Shown one piece after another: positions 20,638 to 39,564 of a stretch of DNA of 64,000 nt; within the stretch, counting starts at the first letter, position 1, and every line of letters starts with the position of its first letter. The notes beneath the pieces were generated by a model that was not told the origin of the DNA, ran no database searches, and saw only the letters and a program-made list of their open reading frames with translations. Source of the stretch: Syntrophotalea carbinolica DSM 2380 (lineage in GTDB: Bacteria; Desulfobacterota; Desulfuromonadia; Desulfuromonadales; Syntrophotaleaceae); assembly GCF_000012885.1 (NCBI RefSeq), contig NC_007498.2, positions 2,418,001 through 2,482,000 on the forward strand, in the 5' to 3' direction. Made by a program: the position numbers and the translations under genes.

Positions 20638-21118
20638 GTAAACTCCTCGTCGTTGAGCACAAAAATATGCTGGCATGACACCCCAGGGATGGGAGTCCTG
20701 CAAAAAGGGCGGTGAACGATATTTGAACAGCATCGTTCAGTTCCTGATCAACCTTCAGACGTAAACACCCAGGCCGGGCAAATGTGCCCGTATGGAAAAA
20801 ACCGGGCCTTCACACCAGATCGCCGAGCATAGCCATCCTCCCGATACGATCAAGGTTCATGGCTGCACACCAACGGCATGAAAGAAAAAATTCCTGCCGG
20901 ATTTCATCCCTGTCCCAGATTTCCCGCCATGGGGGAACATCTTCTCCGCAGTTGTTCCGTAACTAAAATAAAGCATAGCAAAAGCATACCACCAGGGACT
21001 CCGAGTCGGTAGTCAGGACACTTGTCTCAATTAAACCAGGTAATAGGCATCGAATGTGCAAACGTAACGGGTGTTCGATGAAGCCATCTCAACTTTCATT
21101 CCCTTGGAGGCTATCTCC
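20638..21118. other. Divergent intergenic region
   Basis: It separates the VTT operon (-) from the ANTAR regulator (+). A perfect hairpin CGGGCA-AATG-TGCCCG occurs at 20775-20790, and an inverted repeat CATCGAA/TTCGATG (21048-21080) lies just ahead of the regulator's ribosome-binding site. No known riboswitch was recognised. Confidence 0.5.
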
Positions 21119-21682
21119 GTGAAAAGCGTTCTGGTCGTAGACGACAAACCTGAAATTCGCCGTCGGGTGGCGGAAGCCCTGATAAAATACGGATTTACGG
21201 ACATATTGGAAGCCGAAAACGGTCAACAGGCTATCGACATGGCGCAAGCCCATAAACCCCTTCTCATCCTCATGGACTATGTCATGCCGGTCATGGATGG
21301 CATCACCGCTGCTGAAAAAATAAGCAAAAAGTGCCCCACCCCCATCGTACTGCTGACGACCCGTGCAGACCACGAAACCATCGAAAAAGCCCGCTTGGCA
21401 GGAATCAGCAACTATGTTGTGGAACCGTTCCGTGAAGACCAGCTGTTCCCGGCGGTCGACCTGGCCATCCACCATTTCATCGAAGTCACCAGCCTTCGTC
21501 AGGAAGTGGCCAAACTCAAAGACACCCTGGAATCACGCAAAATCATCGAAAAAGCCAAAGGCGCATTGATTCAGCAAGGCATGTCCGAACAGGATGCCTA
21601 CCGCAAAATACAGCGCATGGCTATGAACAAGCGTAAAACTCTCAAGGAGGTGGCGGAAGCCATCCTGTTGACCCTGGAGTAA
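21119..21682 (+). CDS. ANTAR-domain response regulator (transcription antiterminator)
   Basis: 187 residues with a GTG start preceded by TTGGAGG at eight bases. The receiver domain (1-120) has acidic D8-D9 and phospho-acceptor D53 (LILMDYVMPVMDG), but the usual lysine of the K-P motif is Glu102 (YVVEPF). A helical linker leads to the ANTAR domain (about 128-187: KIIEKAKGALIQQGMSEQDA, TLKEVAEAIL). ANTAR proteins bind paired hexaloop hairpins in nascent RNA and prevent termination. draT begins eight bases downstream. Two such leaders occur in this window, before nifH and nifB, so this is the likely regulator (inference; similar to GnfR of Geobacter). No sensor kinase is adjacent. Confidence 0.92.
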   Translation: MKSVLVVDDKPEIRRRVAEALIKYGFTDILEAENGQQAIDMAQAHKPLLILMDYVMPVMDGITAAEKISKKCPTPIVLLTTRADHETIEKARLAGISNYVVEPFREDQLFPAVDLAIHHFIEVTSLRQEVAKLKDTLESRKIIEKAKGALIQQGMSEQDAYRKIQRMAMNKRKTLKEVAEAILLTLE

Positions 21683-21690
21683 AGGCCGCC

Positions 21691-22491
21691 GTGCAATCAT
21701 GTTGTACAAACTACTGTTCCCTGCCGCCCTGGGCCATTGCATCCCGGCACTTCAACCGGCACCCCAAGCCGTTGGAGCTGCAAGGGGTGCGTCGCTGTCA
21801 TCATTCCTTTTTTGAACGACTGGACAACGAACCGGATGCGGAACGTCGCACAGCGACCTTCCACGACTACATGGATGTCACCTTTCAGTTGCATCAGTGG
21901 AGTCAGCAGAAAACCGTTGGTGGCCGGAAAAGCCTTAAAAACAGTTATCTGCGGTTTCTGCGCGGCTGGATGTTCGACTCCAACGGTCGCGAAGGTGCGG
22001 TACTGAAAGGTTGGGTCGAAAGTCGTTTCGGCCTCACCCCGACCTACCATGGCCAGGCCATCTCCGATGTGCATTCGGAAGCCTATCTGGCCTACCTGGT
22101 CGACCGCATGCGCGGCAGCGCCCGTACCAGCGCCATTCAGGCCCAGTTCGATCTGCTGTTCGAGTTTGCCCAATATGAATTGCAACGCCGCTTTCCCGGA
22201 CAAACCCATTTCGACCTGTTCCGCGGTATTTACGATTTCTCCGAACACCCTTTACTGGAACAAATTGATCCTCACCACTGCGTGCTGCGCCTCAACAACC
22301 TGAATTCCTTTACCAGCGACTTCGAACGCGCCTGGGAGTTCGGTTCCAAGGTTCTGGCGGTGAAGGTTCCGGCCAGCAAAATTCTCTTTTTCAATGGCCT
22401 GTTTTCCTCGGCGCTGTTACGCGGCGAAGAAGAGAATCTTGTCATCGGTGGTGAATACGAAGTTGAAGTCGTGACTGGAGGCTTTCGATGA
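21691..22491 (+). CDS. draT: NAD+--dinitrogen-reductase ADP-ribosyltransferase
   Basis: 266 residues. The N terminus NYCSLPPWAIASRHFNRHPK and the long LHQWSQQKTVGGRKSLKNSY region are typical of DraT. The enzyme transfers ADP-ribose from NAD+ to one arginine of NifH (Arg103 of the NifH in this window) and switches nitrogenase off when ammonium appears or energy falls. The start is GTG at 21691; the ATG at 21699 is in another frame. It overlaps draG by four bases. NifH at 29668 keeps the target motif CAGRG. Confidence 0.92.
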   Translation: MQSCCTNYCSLPPWAIASRHFNRHPKPLELQGVRRCHHSFFERLDNEPDAERRTATFHDYMDVTFQLHQWSQQKTVGGRKSLKNSYLRFLRGWMFDSNGREGAVLKGWVESRFGLTPTYHGQAISDVHSEAYLAYLVDRMRGSARTSAIQAQFDLLFEFAQYELQRRFPGQTHFDLFRGIYDFSEHPLLEQIDPHHCVLRLNNLNSFTSDFERAWEFGSKVLAVKVPASKILFFNGLFSSALLRGEEENLVIGGEYEVEVVTGGFR

Positions 22492-23411
22492 GTGACCATC
22501 ACACGCCCCTGGAACATCTCATCCGCCGCGCCCAGAATGCCTTTCTGGGACTGGCTATCGGGGACGCCCTGGGAGCCACCACCGAATTCCTCACGCCCTC
22601 GGAAATCAAGTTTCGGCACAAAATCCATCGGCGCATGATCGGCGGCGGCTGGCTCAACCTCAAACCGGGCCAGGTCACCGACGATACGGAAATGAGTCTT
22701 TGCATCGCCCGCGCCATCGACGAGGCAAGCGGCTGGCACCTGCACGGCATCGCCGAACACTTTGCCGGCTGGCTGCGCAGCAAACCGATCGACGTCGGCG
22801 CCACCTGTCGCCGCGGCATCAGCGATTTCATCATGAAGGGCCAGACGGAAAAAGCATACAGCGACTGGGATGGCGGTAACGGCGCTGCCATGCGCATGCT
22901 GCCCGTTGCACTCTTCACCCTGGGCGACGAAGCTTTGCTTGAGCAATACAGTATCCAGCAGGCTCACCTCACCCATAACCACCCCCTATCCGACGCCGGC
23001 TGCATCGCCGTCGGAAAACTGGTTCAACAGGCCCTGCAGGGTGACGACCGGCCCAAACTGCACGCCACCGTCCGTCAACTCTGTGCCGAACATCCCAAAT
23101 TTCACTGCAAGCACTATCGTGGTCTGGCCTCGGCTTATGTGGTGGAAACCCTGCAAACCGTTTTTCACTATTTTTTCAGCACCGGGGATTTCGAGGAATG
23201 TCTCATCGGAGTCGTCAACCAGGGTGGCGACGCCGACACCACCGGTGCCATCGTCGGTATGATTGCCGGGGCATTTTACGCCGACAAGCCATGGCCGCGA
23301 AACTGGTTGAAAAAACTCAATCCAAAAGTCAAAACCGAGGTCACCGCCCTTGCCGAACGCCTGGTACGCTTATCCCCTTTGGGAAAAAGGCTGCAAGCCG
23401 CCGAGGGCTAG
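22488..23411 (+). CDS. draG: ADP-ribosyl-[dinitrogen reductase] glycohydrolase
   Basis: 307 residues. Metal-binding motifs of the ADP-ribosylglycohydrolase family are intact: GDALGATTEF near 25, T64-D65-D66 in VTDDTEMS, and D248/D250 in GGDADTTGAIVG. DraG removes ADP-ribose from NifH and reactivates it. Translation is coupled to draT by an ATGA overlap. A terminator starts at the last base of the stop codon, so regulator-draT-draG is a closed three-gene unit. Confidence 0.95.
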   Translation: MSDHHTPLEHLIRRAQNAFLGLAIGDALGATTEFLTPSEIKFRHKIHRRMIGGGWLNLKPGQVTDDTEMSLCIARAIDEASGWHLHGIAEHFAGWLRSKPIDVGATCRRGISDFIMKGQTEKAYSDWDGGNGAAMRMLPVALFTLGDEALLEQYSIQQAHLTHNHPLSDAGCIAVGKLVQQALQGDDRPKLHATVRQLCAEHPKFHCKHYRGLASAYVVETLQTVFHYFFSTGDFEECLIGVVNQGGDADTTGAIVGMIAGAFYADKPWPRNWLKKLNPKVKTEVTALAERLVRLSPLGKRLQAAEG

Positions 23412-25654: not shown

Positions 25655-25696
25655 GATTAGTAATTGGTGATTAGTTACTGGTGACTGGTGATTGTT
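25655..25696. repeat. Six degenerate heptads, reverse orientation of the ACCARTC family
   Basis: Units read GATTAGT, AATTGGT, GATTAGT, TACTGGT, GACTGGT, GATTGTT. Their complements are variants of ACCA(A/G)TC, the unit repeated twelve times at 38273-38356. Confidence 0.75.
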
Positions 25697-25870
25697 ACTT
25701 ACATATTGCCGATGTGGAATCATCCTGTCCCCTCGTGACGCAGCCGGAGCGAAGCGACCGGCGGACGAAAAAGGCGGAAGACTGAGCGTAGCGAACCCTT
25801 CCGCCCGCCCGGCGGTTGCGTAGCGCAGGGAACCCGCCGCAGGCGGGCCAGGAGCGGGGCACCTTTCTCT

Positions 25871-29340: not shown

Positions 29341-30546
<1,206 letters not shown>

Positions 30547-38272: not shown

Positions 38273-38356
38273 ACCAATCACCAATCACCAATCACCAATC
38301 ACCAATCACCAGTCACCAATCACCAGTCACCAATCACCAGTCACCAGTCACCAGTC
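38273..38356. repeat. Twelve tandem heptads ACCA(A/G)TC
   Basis: Twelve uninterrupted 7-base units, seven... pattern by fifth base: A A A A A G A G A G G G. The array is not CRISPR: there are no spacers. Copy number could vary by slippage. Confidence 0.92.
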
Positions 38357-38473
38357 ACTGCTTTTCAACTCCTTTCCCCATCTTCCAACACCGTTTTACC
38401 CCACGTCTTGCGACTGCCTGCTTTTTAGACAACCTTTGTCCGATTGCGCTCCGCGCAGGCAGGGTCTCAACCG

Positions 38474-38500
38474 AAAAGCCTGTGTTTCTGGGCTTTTTTT
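38474..38500 (+). terminator. Terminator upstream of the nifB promoter
   Basis: AAAAGCC pairs with GGCTTTT around a 10-base loop, and the T run reaches eight. It would stop transcription from the three-gene module before nifB. Confidence 0.75.
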
Positions 38501-38503
38501 TGT

Positions 38504-38521
38504 TTGGCACAGGCGATGCAA
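38504..38521 (+). promoter_or_regulatory. Sigma-54 promoter of nifB
   Basis: TTGGCAC-AGGCG-ATGCAA with GG at 38506-38507 and GC at 38518-38519, ten bases apart. Confidence 0.9.
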
Positions 38522-38544
38522 TAGAACTATCCCGACAGCAACGG

Positions 38545-38614
38545 GGCACAATGGCGTGCCTGGCTGAGAAACGGCAACGAGGCCCGGTGGGATTTCCCGC
38601 CTGGGCCTTTTTTT
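38545..38614 (+). promoter_or_regulatory. nifB leader: two A-x-x-G hexaloop hairpins overlapping a terminator (ANTAR antitermination site)
   Basis: Hairpin 1 is GGCAC-AATGGC-GTGCC (38545-38560). Hairpin 2 is GGC-AACGAG-GCC (38573-38584). Both hexaloops have A first and G fourth. The terminator pairs GGCCC (38581-38585) with GGGCC (38603-38607), plus inner GGTGGG/CCCGCC around ATTT, and is followed by seven T. The 3' side of hairpin 2 lies inside the terminator's 5' arm. Layout and spacing match the nifH leader although the terminator stems differ in sequence, which argues for selection on structure. Confidence 0.85.
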
Positions 38615-38670: not shown

Positions 38671-39564
38671 ATGTCTGCCAAACCTTGCTCCGGAAACAAT
38701 CGCCCTGCTGCCGGCCACCCATGCTTCGGTGCCGGGCATCAAAATAATGCCCGCATTCACCTGCCTGTGGCACCGGGGTGCAATATCAGCTGCGGGTTCT
38801 GCGAACGCCGCTTCGATTGCGCCAACGAAAACCGTCCCGGCGTTACCAGCCGGGTGCTCTCCCCGAGTCAGGCGCTGCATCGGGTCAAGGCTCTGCTGGC
38901 ACACCCGGACGTCGGTTCCAAATTAAAGGTTGTCGGCATCGCCGGTCCCGGCGACCCGCTTGCCAATGAAAAAACCTTCGAAACCCTTAGATTGGTTAAG
39001 GAAGCGTATCCCGACCTGCAACTGTGCCTCTCCACCAACGGTCTGGTGCTGCCCCAGCGTTTGGAGACTTTGCTCGAAATCGGCGTTGGCAGTATCACCG
39101 TAACCATGAATGCCATCACTCCGGAAACCGGTGCCAAGGTTTACCAGTGGGTCAACGTCAACGGCACGGTAATGCGTGGGCAAAAGGGAGCATCCGCCCT
39201 GATCGATGCCCAGATGGCCGGTATCCAGGCTGCGGCCCGTGCCGGCATGCTGGTTAAGGTCAATAACGTCTACATCCCGGGCGTGAATGATCATGAAACC
39301 CTGCCTCTGGCCAAGATCGCCAAAAAACTCGGTGCCAGCATCATGAATATTCTGCCGCTTATCGCCCAGGGCGCTTTCCGCGACAATCCGGTACCGAGCG
39401 ATGCACAGATGGCCGTGGTGCGAGACCTCGCCGAGAAAATTCTGCCGCAGTCCCGCCACTGCAAACAGTGCCGTGCCGATGCTGCCGGTGTTCTCGGGCA
39501 GGACATCGATGTGTCGATCCTGGACGCAGCCCCTGAATCTGTTACATCAAGCTTTTTCAACTAA
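38671..39564 (+). CDS. nifB: Nitrogenase cofactor biosynthesis radical SAM protein, short form
   Basis: 297 residues. Radical SAM cluster C37-x3-C41-x2-C44 (VAPGCNISCGFCERRFDC), IAGPGDPLAN as the glycine motif, and the C-terminal NifB signature CKQCRADAAGVLG. NifB builds the 8Fe-9S-C core (NifB-co). The C-terminal NifX-like domain of many NifB proteins is absent; two separate NifX-like proteins are encoded upstream. It has its own sigma-54 promoter and antitermination leader, and GGAG before the ATG. Confidence 0.96.
   Translation: MSAKPCSGNNRPAAGHPCFGAGHQNNARIHLPVAPGCNISCGFCERRFDCANENRPGVTSRVLSPSQALHRVKALLAHPDVGSKLKVVGIAGPGDPLANEKTFETLRLVKEAYPDLQLCLSTNGLVLPQRLETLLEIGVGSITVTMNAITPETGAKVYQWVNVNGTVMRGQKGASALIDAQMAGIQAAARAGMLVKVNNVYIPGVNDHETLPLAKIAKKLGASIMNILPLIAQGAFRDNPVPSDAQMAVVRDLAEKILPQSRHCKQCRADAAGVLGQDIDVSILDAAPESVTSSFFN

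Follow-up and report, generated by a model that had tools for sequence, protein, structure and literature searches.

Does nifB of Syntrophotalea carbinolica DSM 2380 have a transcriptional switch of its own, and is it the same switch that precedes nifH? The original prediction held that the leader architecture of nifH is repeated at nifB (38504-38614) and proposed a regulon that covers both structural and cofactor genes. The question has been addressed here in the 64-kb window, meaning the whole 64,000-nucleotide stretch of DNA that was analysed, and beyond it by searching the genome with patterns and covariance models and by comparison with relatives. The nifB leader is very probably an ANTAR-dependent antiterminator of the sigma-54 nifB transcript. 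The kind of mechanism is ANTAR antitermination, of the EutV/NasR/AmiR type, and an ANTAR protein probably uses the switch in the nifB leader to override a transcription stop.

Elements of the nifB leader

A sigma-54 promoter, two small hairpins (P1 and P2), and an intrinsic terminator are each present upstream of nifB at the place claimed for them (Table 1). From 5' to 3', the order is promoter, P1, P2, GC-rich terminator, ribosome-binding site, and the ATG at 38671. The hexaloops AATGGC and AACGAG named in the original prediction have both been located, with A1 and G4 in each loop, and they are carried on stems of 5 bp in P1 and 3 bp in P2, as in ANTAR hexaloop hairpins. The overlap of P2 with the terminator was likewise found as predicted, the 5' arm of the terminator containing the 3' arm of P2. 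The sigma-54 promoters of nifB and nifH (the latter at 29449) are the best such sites of the 64-kb window; they are tied, and no others reach 9/10. A promoter of the nifB type is found at the equivalent location in most relatives.

Table 1. Positions of the leader elements and of the genes discussed in the text. Positions are those of the window unless stated otherwise.
Feature	Position	Strand	Description
sigma-54 (-24/-12) promoter of nifB	38505-38519	+	TGGCACAGGCGATGC; consensus positions matched 9/10
P1 hairpin of nifB leader	38545-38560	+	GGCAC[AATGGC]GTGCC; ANTAR hexaloop with A1 and G4; -8.3 kcal/mol
P2 hairpin of nifB leader	38573-38584	+	GGC[AACGAG]GCC; second ANTAR hexaloop
nifB-leader intrinsic terminator	38582-38614	+	stem 38582-38607, seven-T tract 38608-38614
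nifB	38671-39564	+	best NCBIfam match TIGR01290 nifB, 311 bits, below the full-length cut-off and covering positions 9-281 of the 441-position model; Pfam Radical_SAM
sigma-54 promoter of nifH	29449-29463	+	TGGCACGCCCCCTGC; consensus positions matched 9/10
P1 of nifH leader	29487-29504	+	TGACAC[AACGGC]GTGTCA
P2 of nifH leader	29512-29523	+	GGC[AACGAC]GCC
nifH-leader terminator	29521-29560	+	overlaps the P2 3' arm; -23.1 kcal/mol, z = -5.0
nifH	29668-30546	+	TIGR01287, 470 bits
Third ANTAR leader	contig 620603-620646 (L043 1474-1517), outside the window		5' of a TIGR01616 gene
Receiver + ANTAR response regulator (presumed antiterminator, GnfR-like)	21071-21682	+	Response_reg 85.8 bits, ANTAR 63.5 bits
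draT	21691-22491	+	PF07357, 377 bits; directly 3' of the regulator gene
draG-like ADP-ribosylglycohydrolase	22488-23411	+	PF03747, 219 bits

The terminator of the nifB leader folds with -25.1 kcal/mol (z = -5.0 against shuffles), and in the minimum-energy folds the terminator is formed and P2 is absent. P2 and the terminator are mutually exclusive. Forcing P2 is costly because the lower part of the terminator is removed, and the cost relative to the terminator fold is 9.3 kcal/mol at nifB, 4.2 kcal/mol at nifH, and 9.0 kcal/mol at a third copy described below. In these predicted folds, the energetics of P2 and the terminator are as expected for an antiterminator in which P2 has to be stabilised by a protein. 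By itself, P2 folds as a weak 3-bp helix and is convincing only through its conservation.

A terminator-like hairpin (38473-38498) ends immediately 5' of the nifB promoter; transcription of nifB thus seems to be insulated from that of the preceding genes. Just upstream of the promoter region, a 7-bp unit (ACCAATC / ACCAGTC) is repeated in twelve tandem copies (38273-38358), and an inverted stretch resembling this repeat lies near 25655-25700. The NifB encoded here is a short, radical-SAM-only form without the C-terminal NifX-like domain. In an Rfam scan of the window, only one tRNA was reported at the gathering threshold and no curated family fits the leader, the only match of the nifB leader being a sub-threshold one to P11 (18.5 vs 70 bits).

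Copies at nifH and at a third target

The nifH leader (29449-29560) has a layout identical to that of the nifB leader, and a dual-hairpin and T-run filter applied to both strands of the 64-kb window returned these two leaders only. The close match in hairpin positions relative to the promoter that had been claimed for the two leaders holds for the distance from promoter to loop 1 (30 nt at nifB, 29 nt at nifH), while the distance from loop 1 to loop 2 differs (26 nt vs 22 nt). As had been noted, the stems of the two terminators differ, with no sequence in common.

R1, a covariance model derived from an alignment of 16 leaders, detects three strong copies genome-wide, with all three included in its training set. 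Therefore, a further model (R2) was trained on 19 leaders taken from other genera. R2 recovers nifB with 45.8 bits (E = 3.8e-7), nifH with 39.7 bits (E = 9.5e-6), and the third locus with 36.5 bits (E = 5.4e-5), and the next-best match in the 3.67 Mb genome reaches 21.9 bits (E = 0.12), these E-values being rough because calibration was shortened. The scan for further copies that the original prediction called for has thus not returned many matches at random places: the strong copies number exactly three, each at a nitrogenase-related gene, and within this set the nifB leader repeats the nifH architecture. Since the strong copies are exactly three and all nitrogenase-related, the reading as a nif regulon is right, and a regulon spanning a structural gene (nifH) and a cofactor gene (nifB) is supported. 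No strong model match was found upstream of amtB, glnB, or glutamine synthetase of this genome.

The third copy lies 5' of a gene matching TIGR01616, 'nitrogenase-associated protein', with 158 bits (cut-off 109). Its hairpins are GTCAC[AAAGGT]GTGGC (P1) and GGC[AACGAA]GCC (P2). A sigma-54 site is absent before this copy, which is preceded by TTGACA-18-CATAGT. At about the same position, the orthologous leaders of three further genomes carry TTGACA or TTGACT, with a spacing of 17-18 nt. From these promoter sequences, it seems that sigma-54 is combined with antitermination at nifH and nifB, and a housekeeping sigma factor with antitermination at the third copy.

Conservation and covariation

In a sample of 58 genomes of the order, 39 of the 44 that bear nif genes (nifB or nifH) have a match at E <= 0.01, compared to 2 of the 14 nif-less genomes (Fisher p = 5e-7), part of the conservation evidence leaning on models that include structure. 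The two nif-less genomes with a match are poor assemblies, one 78% complete and the other 86% complete with 8% contamination. Across the order, the element is mostly located upstream of nifB and nifH. Most of the loci examined among the strong matches in the class lie directly 5' of NifB or NifH, and most others lie 5' of further nif-related genes. The element is also found 5' of nifB in several genomes from a different family within the class, and copies in other genera are found 5' of an amt-type gene and nifV. Among 394 genomes sampled from the phylum, nine have a match at E <= 3e-4, eight of them from this class. Weak model matches inside coding genes (L179, L185, L186) were judged to be chance.

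The two hairpins are conserved in different ways. P2, with the form GGC-AANGNN-GCCC, is nearly invariant in the 16- and 19-leader alignments and is without covariation evidence because GGC/GCC hardly varies. Of the 5 pairs of P1, 3 have undergone compensatory changes among relatives. In the R2 alignment, one position of P1 is found as GC, AU, CG, and GU and another as CG or UA, with pairing kept. In the same alignment, 98.7% of the P1 cells are paired (20-48% in slid controls) and 13 cells are changed on both sides (4.6 in shuffles), a count that leans towards structure because some sequences were chosen by a stem filter or by R1. RNAalifold recovers both P1 and P2.

Leaders of this kind have also been observed in front of other genes. 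One lies 5' of a gene for an ammonium transporter-HAMP-chemoreceptor signalling fusion (L172 467-2782, genome G052), and others precede genes for large Cache-domain proteins with a weak CheW match (L170 417-2759, genome G042; L173, genome G052), which suggests from gene context that chemotaxis-type proteins may belong to the ANTAR regulon in some relatives. At five loci (L174, L176, L178, L180, L187), the gene 3' of the leader encodes a small helix-turn-helix-like protein, and the one after it a conserved ~105-aa protein (IKPSDLQYRYP...); this pair is uncharacterised and located near nif genes. A genome of another class (G174 contig C20; L222, L227, L230) has three leaders 5' of amt/glnB-type and Rieske/cytochrome b-like genes.

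The ANTAR regulator and the proposed mechanism

The whole genome contains a single match to PF03861, in the response regulator listed in Table 1. Among solved structures, it is closest to 1s8n, a putative antiterminator, and to EutV (6wsh), and it is related to the structures of EutV, NasR, and AmiR. Nine of the 11 residues through which EutV contacts RNA, taken from PMC8934654, are kept (Arg142, Lys143, Lys147, Lys149, Glu160, Tyr164, Met172, Asn173, and Arg175), while Arg168 and Arg177 are not conserved. The receiver domain has Asp24, Asp25, Asp69, and Thr96, with the phospho-acceptor Asp kept, and the usual, nearly invariant Lys is replaced by Glu118.

In the proposed mechanism, the nascent RNA would by default fold the strong GC-rich terminator and transcription would halt before nifB. 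Under nitrogen limitation, which we infer to be the signal, the active response regulator would bind the hexaloop hairpins P1 and P2. With P2 held closed, the terminator would lose its 5' base and RNA polymerase would read through into nifB. Because nifB, nifH, and the third gene carry the same switch, the nitrogenase structural, cofactor, and accessory genes would be switched on together.

Relation to known systems

In Geobacter sulfurreducens, the GnfK/GnfR pair of Ueki and Lovley (2010) reportedly includes an ANTAR response regulator that antiterminates sigma-54-dependent nitrogen-fixation transcripts. The system described here is similar in using ANTAR antitermination on sigma-54-dependent nif transcripts in the same bacterial class, but its regulator gene adjoins draT and draG and its receiver has Glu in place of Lys. 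The EutV/eutP leader of Enterococcus faecalis (PMC3369931, PMC8934654) also has dual A1/G4 hexaloops with P2 overlapping the terminator, and EutV is a receiver-ANTAR regulator whose RNA contacts are largely shared; the target genes, the sigma-54 promoters, and the signal are different here. For EutV, beryllium fluoride was used to show that RNA binding depends on phosphorylation (PMC3369931). The leaders of nasF (NasR) and amiE (AmiR) are likewise two-hairpin ANTAR substrates 5' of a terminator, while NasR and AmiR differ from the present regulator in having other sensor domains and serving other pathways.

Ramesh et al. 2012 (PMC3369931, Figure 9B) reported that three nitrogenase transcription units of Pelobacter carbinolicus contain ANTAR substrates. 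The contig analysed here has a single exact match to the CRISPR spacer #2 primer published for P. carbinolicus (PMC2923632), which assigns the genome to that species; according to PMC2923632, mutants of P. carbinolicus could not yet be constructed. The species, the kind of element, the number of units, and the functional theme are the same as here. The three units are very likely the three copies found here, and the nifB switch itself is most probably already on record. Features that may be unreported are the sigma-70-type promoter at the third copy, the exchange of Lys for Glu in the receiver, and the longer list of targets among relatives.

Alternative explanations

Short hairpins with ANNGNN loops could be common enough for two of them to lie near nif genes by coincidence, and the P2 14-mer, with <=1 mismatch, indeed occurs 39 times in the genome. 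This motif is unspecific, yet it led to the third copy, and the complete element is present in three copies, clearly separated in score from the next match, and keeps its place at orthologous loci. Chance similarity, already considered unlikely in the original prediction, has become a negligible explanation. The leader could also act as a constitutive attenuator, or as a terminator of transcription noise, which reduces nifB expression to a constant extent while the small hairpins are inert. A terminator that is strong and far more stable than P2 would fit such a role. However, a fixed attenuator does not account for hexaloops and stems that are conserved or covarying while the terminator sequences diverge, nor for the association of the element with nif genes throughout the order, and we regard it as very improbable.

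A different alternative is compatible with antitermination and concerns how the regulator is controlled. The ANTAR protein may bind the dual hairpin while being controlled by a partner protein or through its own abundance, and not by classical phosphorylation. Glu replaces the receiver Lys in all six genomes of the genus and in one neighbouring genus, the phospho-acceptor Asp being kept in them, while Lys is found in all other relatives examined. The Glu at this position makes ordinary phosphorylation control of the regulator uncertain. Also, draT and draG directly follow the regulator gene, with no kinase. On the other hand, the acidic pocket and Asp are intact. The missing neighbouring kinase means little, because in G. 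sulfurreducens gnfK (GSU0941) and gnfR (GSU2822), which appear in PMC7962754 as annotated sensor kinase and response regulator, lie at distant loci. Control without phosphorylation is considered unlikely, if well short of negligible; in that case, the switch would respond to how much regulator is present and not to a kinase.

Significance for nitrogen fixation in the group

With ANTAR-dependent antitermination of the nifB transcript as the preferred reading, nitrogenase transcription in this group would be locked a second time, by antitermination on top of sigma-54 initiation, and nifB and nifH would share this control. To this picture the analysis adds a third target, whose promoter is of the sigma-70 type, and an unusual receiver domain. 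We tentatively propose, as a possibility that is still doubtful, that the genus has a variant of the system in which the receiver works without the canonical Lys-dependent phosphoryl switch and the TIGR01616 target is antiterminated independently of sigma-54. If so, the ANTAR protein alone would carry the nitrogen signal at this target, with its conserved TTGACA-type promoter. In relatives, the likely targets of the switch extend to nifV, the Amt-chemoreceptor fusion, and the nif-associated small proteins.
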